From contig NZ_JAFBCZ010000010.1 in the NCBI RefSeq assembly GCF_016907925.1, positions 1-64,000 of the forward strand: a DNA stretch of 64,000 nt. Direction: 5' to 3'. Under the pieces are notes generated by a model, which was given only the letters and a program-made list of their open reading frames with translations, was not told the DNA's origin and ran no database searches. Below are positions 41,588 to 48,736 of this stretch, in pieces (within the stretch, counting starts at the first letter, position 1; the number at the start of each line of letters is the position of its first letter). The position numbers were made by a program, and so were the translations under genes. This DNA comes from Herpetosiphon giganteus. Lineage in GTDB: Bacteria > Chloroflexota > Chloroflexia > Chloroflexales > Herpetosiphonaceae.

Positions 41588-41827
41588 TTACTCTTGGATG
41601 TGTGCTTTGATAAATGCTTCGGCATCGCCGACGGTGCGCAATTTTTCAGCTTCTTCGTCGGTAATTTCTACGCCGAATTCTTCTTCGAGCGACATGACCA
41701 ACTCGACCAAATCGAGTGAGTCGGCGTTGAGGTCATCCAAGAAGGTTGCGCTTGGGACGATTTTTTCTTCTTCTACGCCCAATTGTTCAGCAACCAATTT
41801 CTTCAAGCGTTCGTTTAAGTCTGCCAT
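41588..41827 (-). CDS. acpP: Acyl carrier protein
   Basis: A 79-residue carrier: [20 protein letters not shown] then the phosphopantetheine site in [20 protein letters not shown] (Ser of DSL). It shuttles acyl chains during fatty acid synthesis. GGAG precedes ATG 41827; the frame remains open upstream but those residues do not belong. It is the last gene of the fab operon, 55 bp after nusB. Confidence 0.97.
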
Positions 41828-42670: not shown

Positions 42671-44038
42671 CTAGGCTGTCGCTTCTTTGGCAGTCTGTTG
42701 ATTTAAAATATCAGCCAAGGTGTGCGTGGCAACATCACCGCTCACAAAAGCTGGTTCGTTCATCATGCGCAGTTGAAATGGCAAGGTGGTTGTAATGCCA
42801 CTAATCACACACTCGCTTAATGCCCGCCGCATCCGTTCAATGGCCTCAAGCCGCGTTTCGCCCCATACGATCACTTTGGCTAACATCGAGTCGTAGTTGG
42901 TGGGGGTACGATAGCCTGAATAAAGATGTGAATCGACCCGCACGCCTGGGCCACCTGGTGGTAAATAGAGATCGACAGTCCCACCAGCAGGCATAAAATC
43001 ACGGTCAGCATCTTCGGCATTAATCCGACATTCAATCGCATGCCCGCGTATTTTAATGTCATCCTGAGTGAGCGTCAAGCGTTCGCCAGAAGCAATCCGA
43101 ATTTGCCACTTAACTAAATCCAAGCCGGTCAGCCATTCGGTCACTGGATGCTCAACCTGCAAACGGGTATTCATTTCCATAAAATAGAAATTTCCCTGAT
43201 GATCGAGCAAAAATTCCATGGTGCCGGCGTTGTAGTAGCCAATCTCGCGCACGCCGTGCAAGGCGGCTGCGCCCATTTTTTGGCGCAATTCTGGGGTCAG
43301 GGCTGGCGATGGGCCTTCTTCGACGACTTTTTGGTGGCGACGTTGCAACGAGCAATCGCGCTCGCCAAGGTGAATTGCATTGCCATGCTGGTCGGCCAAA
43401 ATCTGAATTTCAACGTGACGCACGACAGGCAAGTATTTTTCCATATACAAATCGCCACGGCCAAAGGCGGCTTCGGCTTCGGCGCGTGCTGTATTGAAGG
43501 CTCGCGCCAATTCGTCAGGCTGGTTGACGACGCGCATGCCGCGCCCGCCACCGCCAGCGACAGCCTTCAAGAGCACCGGGTAGCCAATGCTATCGGCAAG
43601 GCCTTGGGCTTCTTCAACGCTGGTCAAGGGGTTTTCGGTGCCAGGCACAAGCGGCAGGCCAGCGAGTTTCATGGCTTGTTTGGCAAGGGCTTTATCGCCC
43701 ATTCGCTGAATCGAATCTGCCGAAGGGCCAATGAAGGTCAGGCCACATTCACGGCAGCTCTCAGCAAAATAGGGATTTTCCGAAAGAAAGCCATAGCCAG
43801 GGTGAATCGCATCGCAATCGCTAATCAGCGCGGCGCTAATCAAGGCTGGCGCGTTCAGGTAAGATTTAGCGGGGGCTGGCGGGCCGATACAAATTGCTTC
43901 ATCGGCCATGCGCACTGCCAGCGAATCGCGATCGGCCTCGGAATAGGCCGCAACCGCTTTGATGCCCAACTCATGGCAGGCGCGAATGATCCGCACGGCA
44001 ATTTCGCCACGATTGGCAACCAAAATTTTGCGTAACAT
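42671..44038 (-). CDS. accC: Biotin carboxylase subunit of acetyl-CoA carboxylase
   Basis: A 455-residue ATP-grasp enzyme. It starts KILVANRGEIAVRIIRACHE, with HPGYGFLSENPYFAE, the ATP site AVAGGGGRGMRVV, the biotin carboxylase signature MEMNTRLQVEHPVTE and the C-terminal domain. It makes carboxybiotin for malonyl-CoA production. GAGG precedes ATG. The carrier protein gene accB, often directly upstream, is absent here; the gene upstream is fabG. Hence accB and accD must lie elsewhere. Confidence 0.97.
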   Translation of the reverse strand: MLRKILVANRGEIAVRIIRACHELGIKAVAAYSEADRDSLAVRMADEAICIGPPAPAKSYLNAPALISAALISDCDAIHPGYGFLSENPYFAESCRECGLTFIGPSADSIQRMGDKALAKQAMKLAGLPLVPGTENPLTSVEEAQGLADSIGYPVLLKAVAGGGGRGMRVVNQPDELARAFNTARAEAEAAFGRGDLYMEKYLPVVRHVEIQILADQHGNAIHLGERDCSLQRRHQKVVEEGPSPALTPELRQKMGAAALHGVREIGYYNAGTMEFLLDHQGNFYFMEMNTRLQVEHPVTEWLTGLDLVKWQIRIASGERLTLTQDDIKIRGHAIECRINAEDADRDFMPAGGTVDLYLPPGGPGVRVDSHLYSGYRTPTNYDSMLAKVIVWGETRLEAIERMRRALSECVISGITTTLPFQLRMMNEPAFVSGDVATHTLADILNQQTAKEATA

Positions 44039-44086: not shown

Positions 44087-44842
44087 CTAATACATGGTCA
44101 TGCCGCCATCGACGGCCAAGGTTTGGCCAGTGATGTAGCCAGCAGCATCGGAAGCCAAGAACACCACCGCATTGGCGATTTCGGCAGGTTGACCCATGCG
44201 CGCCAAGGGAATTCGATCCAAGGCTTTGTTAATCAAATCTTCGGACATGGCGTTGCGGGTCATATCGGTTTCGATAAAGCCTGGGCAAATTGCGTTGGCG
44301 GTAATGCCGCGCGAAGCCATTTCTTGGGCCACCGATTTGCTAAAGCCGATCAGGCCTGCTTTGGCGGCGGCATAATTAGCTTGGCCAGCATTGCCCGTCA
44401 GACCAATCACTGAGCTAATCGTAATTACGCGGCCCCATTTATTTTTCATCATCGGGCGCAGCACAGCCTTGGTGAGCAACATCACGCCGCGCAAGTTGGT
44501 TTGCAATACATCATCAACTTCGCTCTCTTTCATGCGCAACAACAAGTTATCACGGGTAATGCCAGCATTGTTGACCAGAATATCGACCCGCCCAAAGGCT
44601 TCGGTCGTCGCTTTGAGCAAGGTTTCGTGGCTGGCAGGGTCGGCCACATCTGCTTGCACAGCAAGCGCTTTGCCACCCTTGGCCGAAATCGCCGCAACGA
44701 CCTCAGCCGCTGCTGCCTCGCTGCCACGATAATTGACCACCACGGCGGCTCCGCTTGCAGCCAAGGCCTCGGCAATCGAACGCCCGATGCCACGCGAAGC
44801 TCCAGTCACAATTGCGACACGACCGGTTAAATCTAGTTGCAT
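44087..44842 (-). CDS. fabG: 3-oxoacyl-[acyl-carrier-protein] reductase FabG
   Basis: A 251-residue SDR reductase that reduces 3-oxoacyl-ACP with NADPH. The cofactor site reads TGASRGIGRS, followed by NNAG, the catalytic Ser in TISSVIGLTG and the YxxxK site NYAAAKAGL. The start at 44842 has AAGGAG upstream. The catalytic set is intact. It is the downstream one of three FabG-type genes in a row, followed by accC. Confidence 0.93.
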   Translation of the reverse strand: MQLDLTGRVAIVTGASRGIGRSIAEALAASGAAVVVNYRGSEAAAAEVVAAISAKGGKALAVQADVADPASHETLLKATTEAFGRVDILVNNAGITRDNLLLRMKESEVDDVLQTNLRGVMLLTKAVLRPMMKNKWGRVITISSVIGLTGNAGQANYAAAKAGLIGFSKSVAQEMASRGITANAICPGFIETDMTRNAMSEDLINKALDRIPLARMGQPAEIANAVVFLASDAAGYITGQTLAVDGGMTMY

Positions 44843-44858: not shown

Positions 44859-45602
44859 CTAAACCATGCGCCAACCGCCATCGACTGGCAGCACTTGGCC
44901 GGTAATATAGCCCGCCTCGGGATTGGCCAGCATAAAAATCGCTGGCGTAATTTCGGCAGGCGCTCCCAACCGTTTGAGCGGCACAATATTGGTGGCCCAT
45001 GGGATATAACTTGGGTCAAAACTCGACATATGGGGCCGCGAAATCAGGCCCGGGGCAACACTATTGACCGTAATGCCCCACGGCGCTACCTCGCGGGCCA
45101 GCGATTTCGAAAAGCCAATAATTCCGCCAAGCGCGGCAGCATAATTGGCTTGGGTCAGGCCGCCAGCCAAAGGCTGATAGCCAGTAATCGTAATAATCCG
45201 CCCATAGCGGGCTTTTTGCATTGGCCGCAACACGGCGCGGGTAATGCGGGTTACGCCACGCAGCATCGTCTCCAGCACATCGTTCCATTGCTCTAGCGTC
45301 ATCTCAGCAACTGGCGCGTTGTTGACTGCTGAATGGGCGGTGATCAGCATATCGAGCCGCTCCCAGCGCCGCACAGCCACCTCAACGAGGCTGTTCATGG
45401 CTTCAGCATCGCGCACATCGGCCTTGATTGCAATCAGGCGTTGTTCGTCGGCAATCGTGGCACACATTTCTTCGGCCAGCTCATCGCGTTGGCGATAGCA
45501 AAAAACCACCCGTGCGCCGCGTTGAATGAGGCCTGAGACAACTTCGCGCCCAATCGCGCCAGTGCCACCTGTGACAATCGCCACTTGATCATTGATACTC
45601 AT
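44859..45602 (-). CDS. FabG-like SDR lacking the catalytic Lys (probable pseudoenzyme)
   Basis: A 247-residue SDR of FabG type. The NAD(P)-binding motif TGGTGAIGREV and the C-terminal PVDGGWRM are kept, but the catalytic Ser position reads ITITGYQ, the NNAG turn reads AHSA and the YxxxK motif reads NYAAALGGI (Tyr kept, Lys replaced by Leu, codon CTT). A conventional reduction mechanism is unlikely. It is the middle gene between two intact FabGs, in the same operon, 16 bp before the next gene. It may be a scaffold, a heterodimer partner or a regulator. Loss of three catalytic features makes a simple single error unlikely. Confidence 0.9.
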   Translation of the reverse strand: MSINDQVAIVTGGTGAIGREVVSGLIQRGARVVFCYRQRDELAEEMCATIADEQRLIAIKADVRDAEAMNSLVEVAVRRWERLDMLITAHSAVNNAPVAEMTLEQWNDVLETMLRGVTRITRAVLRPMQKARYGRIITITGYQPLAGGLTQANYAAALGGIIGFSKSLAREVAPWGITVNSVAPGLISRPHMSSFDPSYIPWATNIVPLKRLGAPAEITPAIFMLANPEAGYITGQVLPVDGGWRMV

Positions 45603-45611
45603 TCTGCACCC

Positions 45612-46361
45612 CTATGGCATGACCCAGCCGCCATCAATCGTCAGCACATGGCCAATAATATACGATGCAGCAGGCGAGGCCAGAAAGGCCACCGCTGGCG
45701 CAACTTCTTCGACTTTGCCAAAGCGTTTGAGCGGAATCACATCAAGCGCCCAGGTTCGCAACCATTGCGGAATATGGTCGATAAAGTCGGTGTCGATATA
45801 GCCAGGCGCGACCACGTTGACCACAATTCCATCGGCGGTTACTTCGCGGGCCACGGCCTTGGAAAAGCCAACCAAGCCCATCTTGGCCGCAGCATAGTTG
45901 GTTTGGCCAACATTGCCCGCCAAGCCCGCCAAAGAGGCAATGCTAACGATTCGGCCATAGCTGTTGGCCCGCATCGCTGGCAATACCGCTTGAGTGCATA
46001 AAAATGCCGAGGTCAGATCAGCTTTGATCACATCGTCCCATTCCTCGTCTTTCAAACGCTGAAACAGGTTGTCGCGGGTAATACCCGCATTGTTGATCAA
46101 AATATGAATCATGCCCCATTCAGTTAATGTTTGGGTCACCATGGTTTCAACTGCCTGCTGATCGGTCACATCTGCTTGAATCGCCATGGCCGTGCCACCA
46201 GCAGCCTGAATTTCGCCAACCACTGCTTCAGCTTTAGCGGCACTTGATTGATAATTGACAACGACTTTAACGCCCCAACTGGCTAGCTCCAAAGCAATCG
46301 CTCGGCCAATTCCGCGCGATGCTCCGGTCACAATCGCAACATGGTCTTTCATTCCCCGCAT
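45612..46361 (-). CDS. fabG: 3-oxoacyl-[acyl-carrier-protein] reductase FabG
   Basis: A 249-residue SDR: cofactor loop TGASRGIGRAI, NNAG, the catalytic Ser in SIASLAGLAG and the YxxxK site NYAAAKMGL. The start at ATG 46361 has GTGAGG eight bases upstream; an alternative ATG lies three codons later. It is the first FabG after fabD, so it is probably the primary reductase of the operon, with two paralogues downstream. The acyl-chain or head-group preference of each copy cannot be seen. Confidence 0.93.
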   Translation of the reverse strand: MRGMKDHVAIVTGASRGIGRAIALELASWGVKVVVNYQSSAAKAEAVVGEIQAAGGTAMAIQADVTDQQAVETMVTQTLTEWGMIHILINNAGITRDNLFQRLKDEEWDDVIKADLTSAFLCTQAVLPAMRANSYGRIVSIASLAGLAGNVGQTNYAAAKMGLVGFSKAVAREVTADGIVVNVVAPGYIDTDFIDHIPQWLRTWALDVIPLKRFGKVEEVAPAVAFLASPAASYIIGHVLTIDGGWVMP

Positions 46362-46384: not shown

Positions 46385-47317
46385 TTACTGGGCGTTATTG
46401 TACTCGCCAATCTTCGCTATGTCATCAAAGCTGGCAAGATTCAGGCGTTGCAAGCTGGGATCGATGCGCTTGACCAAGCCAGTCAGCACGTTGCCAGCGC
46501 CAATTTCAAGCACAGTTTGCACACCCAAGGCCGCCATTTGTTCAATCGTGGCAATCCAGCGCACAGGAGCCGTAATTTGAGCCACCAACTCAGCCCGAAT
46601 CTCGGCGGCGCTACTGATTGCTTGGGCGGTGCTATTGGCAATCACTGGCACGTGGGCGGCATTAATCGTCGCTGCGGCAATTGCAGGAGCCAAGCCAGCA
46701 GCGGTTGCTTCCATCAAGGGCGAGTGAAACGCGGCGCTCACATTCAAGGGCATAATTTTTTTGGCCCCAGCAGCTTTGGCTTGTTCGCTGGCTGCCGCAA
46801 CCGCCGCACTGCTGCCACTAATCACCAATTGGCCATGGGCATTTTGGTTGGCCACAACGCATGCGCCAAGCTCGCTCACATTGGCACAGACAGCTTCGAG
46901 CGGCGCAAGATCCAGCCCAATCACGGCGGCCATCGCACCTTCGCTGGCTTGGGCCATTAATTCGCCACGTTGGCGCACCAAACGCAGCGCGGTGGCAAAA
47001 TCAAGGGCTTTGGCTGCAACCAAGGCGCTATATTCGCCCAACGAATGGCCCGCAACCACGCTTGGCTTCAGCTCAATGCCTGCCTCTGCAAGCGCCGCCA
47101 ACAAGGCCACGCTCACGGTCAACAAGGCTGGTTGGGTGTTTTCAGTGGCAGTTAAATCAGCTTCTGGCCCATCAAAGCACAACGCCGCTAAATCAAAACC
47201 CAGCACTGTGTTGGCTTCGGCAAAAATTGCCTGAGCCGCCGCCGATTGTTCGTAGACTTCACGGCCCATGCCCACTTTCTGCGAGCCTTGGCCAGGAAAA
47301 AGCAATCCGATTGTCAT
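46385..47317 (-). CDS. fabD: Malonyl-CoA:ACP transacylase
   Basis: A 310-residue transacylase that loads malonate onto ACP. It has LFPGQGSQKVGMGRE, the nucleophile Ser in GHSLGEYSAL (about residue 93), the His in AAFHSPLM (about 200) and a conserved Gln-rich loop ending VLEIGAGNVL. It is the first gene of the fab-accC-nusB-acpP operon. Confidence 0.97.
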   Translation of the reverse strand: MTIGLLFPGQGSQKVGMGREVYEQSAAAQAIFAEANTVLGFDLAALCFDGPEADLTATENTQPALLTVSVALLAALAEAGIELKPSVVAGHSLGEYSALVAAKALDFATALRLVRQRGELMAQASEGAMAAVIGLDLAPLEAVCANVSELGACVVANQNAHGQLVISGSSAAVAAASEQAKAAGAKKIMPLNVSAAFHSPLMEATAAGLAPAIAAATINAAHVPVIANSTAQAISSAAEIRAELVAQITAPVRWIATIEQMAALGVQTVLEIGAGNVLTGLVKRIDPSLQRLNLASFDDIAKIGEYNNAQ

Positions 47318-47688: not shown

Positions 47689-48675
47689 CTATTTCCCTCC
47701 CCACACCAACACACCCGAAGCCCAGGTTAGGCCGCCGCCAAATGCGGTCAGCAAAATCGTATCGCCTGGCTGCATGCGCCCAGCATCGGCGGCTTCGGCC
47801 AAGGCTACGGGTAAGGTAGCAGCTGAGGTATTGCCATATTCTTGAATATTGACAAACACCTGCTCCATTGACACGTTGAGCCGCTTAGCAACCGCCTCGA
47901 TAATGCGCAGATTCGCTTGATGCGGAACCACTAATTGCACATCGGCAGGCGTTTTGCCAACTTGCTGCAACACATGAACTGAGCTTTCGACCATGGCGCG
48001 CACAGCATACTTGAACACTTCAGCGCCATTCATCTGAATATATTGTTCAGACTGATCAAGCCGCTCGTGAGTTGCAGGGTAGAGCGTGGCTCCAGCCTTG
48101 ATCCACAGCAATTCGGCAGTATCGGGAATTGCGCCCAATTTGTAGGCTTGCAGCCCGCGCTCTTGCTCAGTGGCTTCGAGAATAACCGCGCCAGCAGCAT
48201 CGCCGAAAATCACGCAGGTATTGCGATCGTGCCAATTTAAGAATGGCGAGATCGTTTCTGCACCGCAGAGTAATACTTTACGCACACCGCCACCGCGAAT
48301 CATGGCGGTGACTGCGCTGAGCGCATATAAAAAGCCACAGCAAGCGGCGTTCATATCCATCACGCCAGCGTTGATTGCGCCTAATTTGGTTTGAACCAAA
48401 GCGGCGGTTGAGGGCAAAAGCAAATCGGGCGAGGTGGTAGCAACCACAATCAAATCAAGCTCTTCTGGCTGCACACCAGCCTTATCGAGCGCAATCCGCG
48501 CGGCGCGGGTGGCCATATCCGAGGTTGCTTGGCCTTCGGCCACAATATGGCGGCGCTGAATGCCGGTGCGCGATTGAATCCATTCGGCGTTGGTATCGAC
48601 AATCTGTTCAAGCTCTTCGTTCGTAAGCACCCGTTCGGGAGCGTAGCGCCCCCAGCCAGTAATTGCTGCATTCAT
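47689..48675 (-). CDS. fabH: 3-oxoacyl-ACP synthase III
   Basis: A 328-residue thiolase-fold enzyme that starts chains by condensing acetyl-CoA with malonyl-ACP. It carries the active Cys in NAACCGFLYAL, His in VPHQANLRII and Asn in GNTSAATLPVALAE. GGGAG lies nine bases before ATG 48675; the frame continues upstream without a ribosome site. Its transcript starts with yceD-rpmF, and a terminator between rpmF and fabH may set its level. Confidence 0.95.
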   Translation of the reverse strand: MNAAITGWGRYAPERVLTNEELEQIVDTNAEWIQSRTGIQRRHIVAEGQATSDMATRAARIALDKAGVQPEELDLIVVATTSPDLLLPSTAALVQTKLGAINAGVMDMNAACCGFLYALSAVTAMIRGGGVRKVLLCGAETISPFLNWHDRNTCVIFGDAAGAVILEATEQERGLQAYKLGAIPDTAELLWIKAGATLYPATHERLDQSEQYIQMNGAEVFKYAVRAMVESSVHVLQQVGKTPADVQLVVPHQANLRIIEAVAKRLNVSMEQVFVNIQEYGNTSAATLPVALAEAADAGRMQPGDTILLTAFGGGLTWASGVLVWGGK

Positions 48676-48736
48676 TGCAAAACACTCCCGTGGTGAAGCC
48701 GTTTCATGCTGCACTGCACAATAAACCGCCTAAAAT

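Follow-up and report, generated by a model that had tools for sequence, protein, structure and literature searches.

What a FabG paralogue without its catalytic lysine does between two intact FabGs is the question raised by this locus of Herpetosiphon giganteus. The window, by which we mean the whole stretch of 64,000 nucleotides analysed, carries three tandem FabG-type short-chain dehydrogenase/reductases (SDRs). The sequence-only reading had placed the defective gene at positions 44859–45602, as the middle one of three. The coordinates are correct and the gene, here called pseudo-FabG, is on the minus strand; the plus strand at 44859–45602 is not the pseudo-FabG gene. The SDRs on its two sides both hold Ser/Tyr/Lys, as had been stated. 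The genes of concern are the following.

44859..45602, minus strand: pseudo-FabG, ATG to TAG, 247 aa, an SDR of FabG fold
45612..46352, minus strand: FabG1up (G1), the upstream neighbour, with intact Ser/Tyr/Lys/NNAG, Arg97 and Asn145
44087..44836, minus strand: FabG2, downstream, a canonical FabG with catalytic residues intact and a basic ACP patch of R123, K129 and R172
46385..47317, minus strand: fabD, upstream in the same gene run, named from sequence
47689..48678, minus strand: fabH, upstream in the same gene run, named from sequence
42671..44038, minus strand: accC, adjoining FabG2, named from sequence
41588..41827, minus strand: acpP, acyl carrier protein, named from sequence

The order on the minus strand is rsmD, coaD, a DivIVA-like gene, DUF177, fabH, fabD, fabG1up, pseudo-fabG, fabG2, accC, an asp23-like gene, nusB, acpP, tatA and tatC. 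Neighbour gene names were assigned from the sequences, and a family search was run for the three SDRs only. The start codon of FabG1up was picked by us, and its open frame extends further upstream. In the window 9 bases separate FabG1up from the pseudo-FabG behind it; over 28 loci where the two adjoin, the spacing ranges from −1 to 157 bases when start positions follow the alignment. A promoter scan found 6 promoter-like sites against 4.9 expected and a terminator scan 9 terminator-like sites against 7.9 expected, so that neither indicates the ends of the operon. The product of acpP is presumed to be the substrate carrier.

Residues are numbered from here on as in E. coli FabG; past residue 57 or so, the alignment puts these numbers 3 below those of the window protein. 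Pseudo-FabG keeps the cofactor motif as TGGTGAIG, shows AHSA in place of NNAG at window residues 89–92, and reads YAAAL instead of YAAAK with a CTT codon for the Leu, all as had been noted earlier together with the changed Ser. The Asn-Ser-Tyr-Lys tetrad of an active FabG reads Met113, Gly141, Tyr154 and Leu158 in window numbering (Asn110>Met, Ser138>Gly, Lys155>Leu), and the Tyr is its sole survivor. The loss of the tetrad Asn goes beyond the earlier reading, as does that of Arg97, an ACP contact, which is Glu in the window protein; Asn145 is Gly. Retained are Arg123, Arg129, Arg167, Glu168, Arg208, Glu214 and Tyr229. Window FabG1up, for its part, has Arg123>Pro, Arg129>Ser and Arg172>Asp.

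Pseudo-FabG belongs to the classical SDRs, with 167.6 bits for PF13561 and 153 bits for PF00106 (adh_short/adh_short_C2, above gathering score). Against the NCBIfam model TIGR01830, with its cut-off of 297.75 bits, it scores 204.5 and falls below the equivalog line; FabG1up scores 296 bits and FabG2 327 bits. The AlphaFold2 monomer model has the Rossmann/FabG fold at a mean pLDDT of 92.7. The closest solved structures are FabGs, with 4jro_A as the best Foldseek match (TM 0.91).

The absence of the Lys is a property of a family. A profile (A1) was built from 16 pseudo-FabG members, with a match line of E <= 1e-95. By profile score, 46 of 82 genomes of the order hold pseudo-FabG, one copy each, and three more (G416, G424, G420) carry it beside FabG1up, as read from the neighbourhood. 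In a search of the window genome and 40 related ones, the six members of the genus, window genome included, all read YAAAL, and relatives down to 42% identity are also without the Lys. None of the copies read, 46 full and 4 partial or divergent, has it. A Lys in other assemblies would have refuted the sequence-only reading, and its argument against a single error withstands this check.

A wider search took in 400 phylum genomes, of which 40 belong to the order. Outside the order the best match to A1 reaches 291 bits, and members within it reach at least 357 bits, except for the most divergent at 333.5 bits (G427). The four best outside matches (G229, G294, G132, G214) have Ser/Tyr/Lys intact. 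Named genomes of bacteria and archaea were scanned as well, with at least 596 matching stretches. Among the best 80, in all of which the Lys position was read and 27 of which entered the residue alignment, 75 have the Lys; the other five, from Oscillochloris, Kouleothrix, Chloroflexi bacterium OHK40 and two Roseiflexus, are members of the pseudo-FabG family.

Residues were counted over 42 pseudo-FabG, 44 FabG1up and 48 canonical FabG rows. A divergent FabG (G040), a truncated FabG1up (G411) and the pseudo copies of G416, G424 and G420 were set aside; the near-copies of the window gene (G002–G005) stand outside the 42 and 44 rows and were read separately. Lys155, Ser138 and Asn86 are present in 44/44 FabG1up and 48/48 canonical rows. 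In pseudo-FabG, position 155 carries Thr in 22 rows, Ala in 15, Leu in 4 and Met in one, position 138 is Ala in 30, Gly in 11 and Ser in one, and Asn86 of NNAG is kept in 5/42. At the Tyr151 position there are 26 Tyr, 15 Phe and one Met. Of the cofactor site, G12 and G18 are kept in 42/42, G16 in 29/42 and R15 in 45%. Asp59 and Gln148 are invariant (both 42/42).

By Nei-Gojobori counts, dN/dS is 0.028–0.150 for pseudo-FabG in ten of the 11 species pairs, the remaining pair being saturated, and 0.029–0.091 for FabG1up in 11/11. Pseudo-FabG is thus a kept protein. A decaying duplicate or an assembly error has a negligible chance: the two-frame copy of G416 could be cited for it, and it is countered by the same substitutions in separate genomes, by purifying selection (0.03–0.15) and by a single clade at 100% SH-aLRT. 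Since the family is one such clade, the simplest view is that the Lys was already gone in its common ancestor.

Could the active site instead have been rebuilt around other residues, giving an enzyme of different chemistry? Tyr151 in 26/42 and Gln148 in 42/42 could be cited for it. However, no conserved polar replacement is seen, which bears as well on the other refuting condition of the sequence-only reading, an active SDR clade lacking the Lys: position 138 is Ala or Gly (Ser once), 155 is Thr, Ala, Leu or Met, 92 is Tyr, Asn, Phe or Leu, and Tyr151 itself becomes Phe or Met in 16 rows. FabI-type enoyl reductases have the motif Tyr-x6-Lys; FabI-like chemistry was considered for the window protein and rejected, for residue 161 is Ile. 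A change of chemistry is therefore quite improbable.

Whether pseudo-FabG travels with a particular FabG was asked of the same 82 genomes with a separate profile (A2) for FabG1up. In 47 genomes FabG1up reaches 366 bits or more, other FabGs follow from 333 bits down, and one further copy is at a contig end (G411). Both genes are found in 48 genomes, pseudo-FabG alone in one, FabG1up alone in none and neither in 33; with many draft assemblies among them, the lack of a gene in any one genome is uncertain. All 48 FabG1up genomes hold pseudo-FabG, 45 by profile and three by reading the neighbourhood. In these three, the copy of G424 is cut by the contig end beside FabG1up, that of G420 scores 320 bits, slightly below the profile score line, and that of G416 (L213, from about 5960) lies in two frames beside an intact FabG1up. 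The two-frame gene is either a sequence error or a broken gene, and in the latter case FabG1up may survive without pseudo-FabG. The genome with pseudo-FabG in which FabG1up was not found (G435) is 71% complete. G420 has two separate FabG1up/pseudo-FabG pairs (L215, L216); in the second pseudo copy position 123 is Pro and the cofactor motif is partly lost.

The f1 and f2 genomes read show the order fabH-fabD-FabG1up-pseudo-FabG-FabG2-accC. In the f4 genomes read the pair follows fabH-fabD, and FabG2 does not adjoin. Four f3 genomes (G016, G429, G432, G433) have fabD and then pseudo-FabG, with FabG1up on another contig. In seven f3 genomes of Roseiflexus type (G013, G019, G022, G025, G027, G031, G436; loci L060, L064, L066–L069, L205) no recognised fab gene adjoins pseudo-FabG, and FabG1up is elsewhere; in the closed genome G013 the two are 595 kb apart. 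Both genes are kept in all eleven f3 genomes despite the separation.

The sequence-only reading had suggested a structural or regulatory partner of fatty acid synthesis, with complex formation to be tested against the two FabGs. The suggestion is upheld in outline, as the protein is non-catalytic by sequence, conserved, placed in the fabH-fabD-fabG run and co-inherited with a FabG. The partner indicated is upstream FabG1up and not FabG2, which is unlinked in the f3 and f4 genomes read, occurs in pair-less genomes and travels with accC/nusB/acpP. Partnership with both neighbours was accordingly rejected.

The pair is lacking in 23 of 56 genomes with at least 90% completeness and at most 5% contamination. 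At the thresholds used, FabH was found in 76 and FabD in 80 of the 82 genomes, and among 13 pair-less genomes whose neighbourhood was examined FabH and FabD are side by side in 12. As 33 of the 82 genomes do without the pair, the fatty acid synthesis of the order does not require pseudo-FabG. In pair-less G012 (L230), FabH was not found at the threshold applied, and the genes directly behind fabD are a canonical FabG and accC.

A phylogeny built on six neighbouring genes, covering 47 of the 82 order genomes and 2 outgroups, gives 11 gains or losses of the pair, at least 8 of them on supported branches; presence of the two genes is identical across these 49 genomes. The partial distance correlation between pseudo-FabG and FabG1up, given three neighbour genes, is 0.281 (26 genomes; 0 of 2000 permutations as high). 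The same test yields 0.269 for pseudo-FabG with FabD and 0.347 for FabG1up with FabD. These values are similar or higher, so the distance-matrix signal is not specific to the pair.

FabG1up and pseudo-FabG are sister clades at 94% SH-aLRT in a tree of 135 rows. A tree of 74 rows, thinned from the 135 with nine long-branched rows left out, supports the grouping at 100/97 (bootstrap/SH-aLRT). Two other placements are 37 and 39 log units lower, with the AU test borderline (p 0.055 and 0.053). Trp241 is common to the pair (pseudo-FabG 42/42, FabG1up 44/44, canonical 2/48), and Trp199 mostly so (37/42 and 43/44).

The residues lost by the two sisters were compared at the 70 positions where 90% or more of the 48 canonical FabGs agree, a position being counted as lost below 50%. 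Both proteins keep 49. Twelve are lost in pseudo-FabG only (R15, N86, T90, D92, R97, V106, S138, N145, G147, N150, K155, A156), four in FabG1up only (M98, N110, R123, R129) and five in both (R91, L94, R172, T189, P205). R123 and R129 are the only ones of the 70 that are lost in FabG1up yet kept at 80% or more in pseudo-FabG. R97 and N145 are each present in 44/44 FabG1up and 0/42 pseudo-FabG rows. Conversely, position 123 is R or K in 42/42 pseudo-FabG and 0/44 FabG1up rows, 29 of the latter having Pro, and R129 is found in 42/42 and 11/44. Each reciprocal loss is a single stem event, conserved afterwards.

These positions have been assigned functions in other bacteria. According to the simulations and mutants of E. 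coli FabG in PMC12490732, two subunits bind ACP, the one that catalyses by R97 and its neighbour by R123, and the Ppant arm is contacted by N145; activity drops in the mutants R97T, R123P and N145G. The Pro123 of FabG1up is the same change as the R123P that weakened the E. coli enzyme. R129 is named with R172 as an ACP-docking residue of E. coli FabG in PMC8007833, and R97, R123 and R129 are the positive residues of Acinetobacter baumannii FabG in PMC8041823. Position 172 is Trp in 41/42 pseudo-FabG rows and Asp or Glu in 35/44 FabG1up rows; R172 is thus gone from both proteins, which argues against a simple transfer of the whole ACP patch.

We propose, with a probability of roughly 0.55, that pseudo-FabG is a catalytically dead FabG paralogue and the ACP-docking subunit of an obligate heteromer with FabG1up. 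The two would most likely form a 2+2 tetramer. FabG1up would provide the active site, the site for NADPH and, on the catalytic side, the ACP contacts R97 and N145. Pseudo-FabG, as its neighbour across the alpha4/alpha5 interface, would supply the basic patch of R123 and R129 for acyl-ACP docking in trans. A homo-oligomer of FabG1up would lack the basic patch and bind ACP poorly, and one of pseudo-FabG could not catalyse. Across alpha4/alpha5, a FabG1up/pseudo-FabG contact would comprise both an ACP dock and a single complete active site, and a pseudo/pseudo contact neither. Several findings weigh against the proposal: the one stem event behind each reciprocal loss, the Arg still at 129 in 11/44 FabG1up rows, the absence of R172 from both proteins, the Pro123 of one G420 pseudo copy, the two-frame copy of G416, the unspecific distance correlation, the borderline AU test and the cofactor glycines kept in pseudo-FabG. 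FabG is reported to hold ACP with catalytic and neighbour residues; if the proposal is true, the pair may have divided these two roles. The broader idea, a split ketoacyl reductase in a type II synthase with catalysis in one FabG, the ACP dock in its sister and only the heteromer working, we consider close to an even bet. Such an arrangement could be likened to a chain-length factor.

The geometry can be compared with the tetramer interfaces of known FabGs. In YpFabG the alpha4/alpha5 interface is described (PMC4635001) as loops with L95, M98, D100, T142, M143, N145 and G147 touching the partner helices, which present R116, K119, K163, S164, R167 and E168; our placing of the R123 carrier as the alpha4/alpha5 neighbour is an inference from this description, the neighbour being unnamed in section 4 of PMC12490732. 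The helix side is kept in pseudo-FabG (K/R119 40/42, K/R163 42/42, R167 42/42, E168 41/42), and the loop side is eroded (N145 0/42, G147 20/42). The residues of the second interface are kept as well, R208, E214 and Y/F229 each in 42/42, as is W103 (42/42), so that residues of both interfaces persist. SpFabG bears on the geometry from the other side. According to PMC11467476, NADPH converts the tetramers of this S. pneumoniae enzyme to dimers, which are put forward as its active form and probably use the other interface and not alpha4/alpha5. Such a dimer would leave no alpha4/alpha5 neighbour, which speaks against the proposed geometry, as does the lower number of tetramers formed by its mutant without Ser/Tyr/Lys.

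The same co-inheritance and interface data also fit a purely structural or allosteric subunit, which would stabilise or activate the FabG1up oligomer with no part in ACP docking, perhaps sensing NADP(H) via the remaining Rossmann motif. G12, G18 and Asp59, each in 42/42, are in line with this, and a docking role alone leaves the two glycines unexplained. The SpFabG mutant without Ser/Tyr/Lys still binds NADPH, with fewer tetramers formed (PMC11467476), and in trypanosomatids a dead paralogue raises the activity of deoxyhypusine synthase 3000-fold (PMC3663545). However, the cofactor site is degraded at R15, N86 and K155, and nothing in a structural role accounts for R123 (as R/K) and R129 being kept in 42/42 of the dead copy and lost in the live partner. 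We regard this explanation as possible, if somewhat doubtful.

With docking by pseudo-FabG as the preferred reading, the pair can be set beside known systems. Homotetrameric FabG shares with pseudo-FabG the fold, the operon setting, the tetramer-interface residues and the R123/R129 patch, but pseudo-FabG is without the Ser, the Lys, the NNAG Asn, R97 and N145. Human mitochondrial KAR is an HSD17B8/CBR4 heterotetramer in which both subunits keep the catalytic residues; the likeness would lie in its being a heteromeric ketoacyl-ACP reductase of two FabG-type paralogues. BbsCD (PDB 7PCS) is reportedly an SDR heterotetramer whose inactive subunits are pseudoenzymes. Chain 7pcs_B (BbsD) matches the pseudo-FabG model with Z 33.8, and many SDRs match it too. 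The likeness to BbsCD would be an inactive SDR subunit paired with an active one, the pairing of pseudo-FabG being indicated by co-inheritance. BbsCD differs as a (hydroxybenzyl)succinyl-CoA dehydrogenase of toluene degradation (PMC10818641). Trypanosomatid deoxyhypusine synthase likewise joins an impaired enzyme and a dead paralogue in a heterotetramer (PMC3663545), but enzyme and pathway are unrelated.

Inactive-subunit SDRs are already known through BbsCD, and the new part would be the split of catalysis and docking between two FabGs. No report of such a division was found in the open-access literature searched, and no description of the pseudo-FabG protein was found there among papers sought on FabG pseudoenzymes, on SDRs that are heteromeric or contain an inactive subunit, and on FabG of Herpetosiphon. 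If true, the pair would be a natural experiment separating carrier recognition from catalysis in fatty acid synthesis, and genes of the order likely annotated "3-oxoacyl-ACP reductase" would not be reductases alone.

FabG1up might also be a stand-alone reductase for CoA esters or for medium or long chains, with pseudo-FabG performing a separate task in the same pathway. The medium-chain enzyme PpFabG4 shares with FabG1up Ala140 (44/44 FabG1up rows) and, in 29/44, Pro123 (PMC12490732), and the acidic residue at 172 in 35/44 rows points the same way. PpFabG4 differs in being a homotetramer that has also lost R97, kept in 44/44 FabG1up rows, and section 4 of PMC12490732 mentions no dead partner for it. 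With a stand-alone FabG1up, neither the 48/48 co-inheritance, even where the genes are unlinked, nor the conservation of the docking Arg residues in the dead copy would have a reason, and we think it unlikely. The tetrad Asn110 of FabG1up is Asp in 33/44 rows and His in 4. Judged from its residues, FabG1up may show unusual kinetics or chain-length preference.
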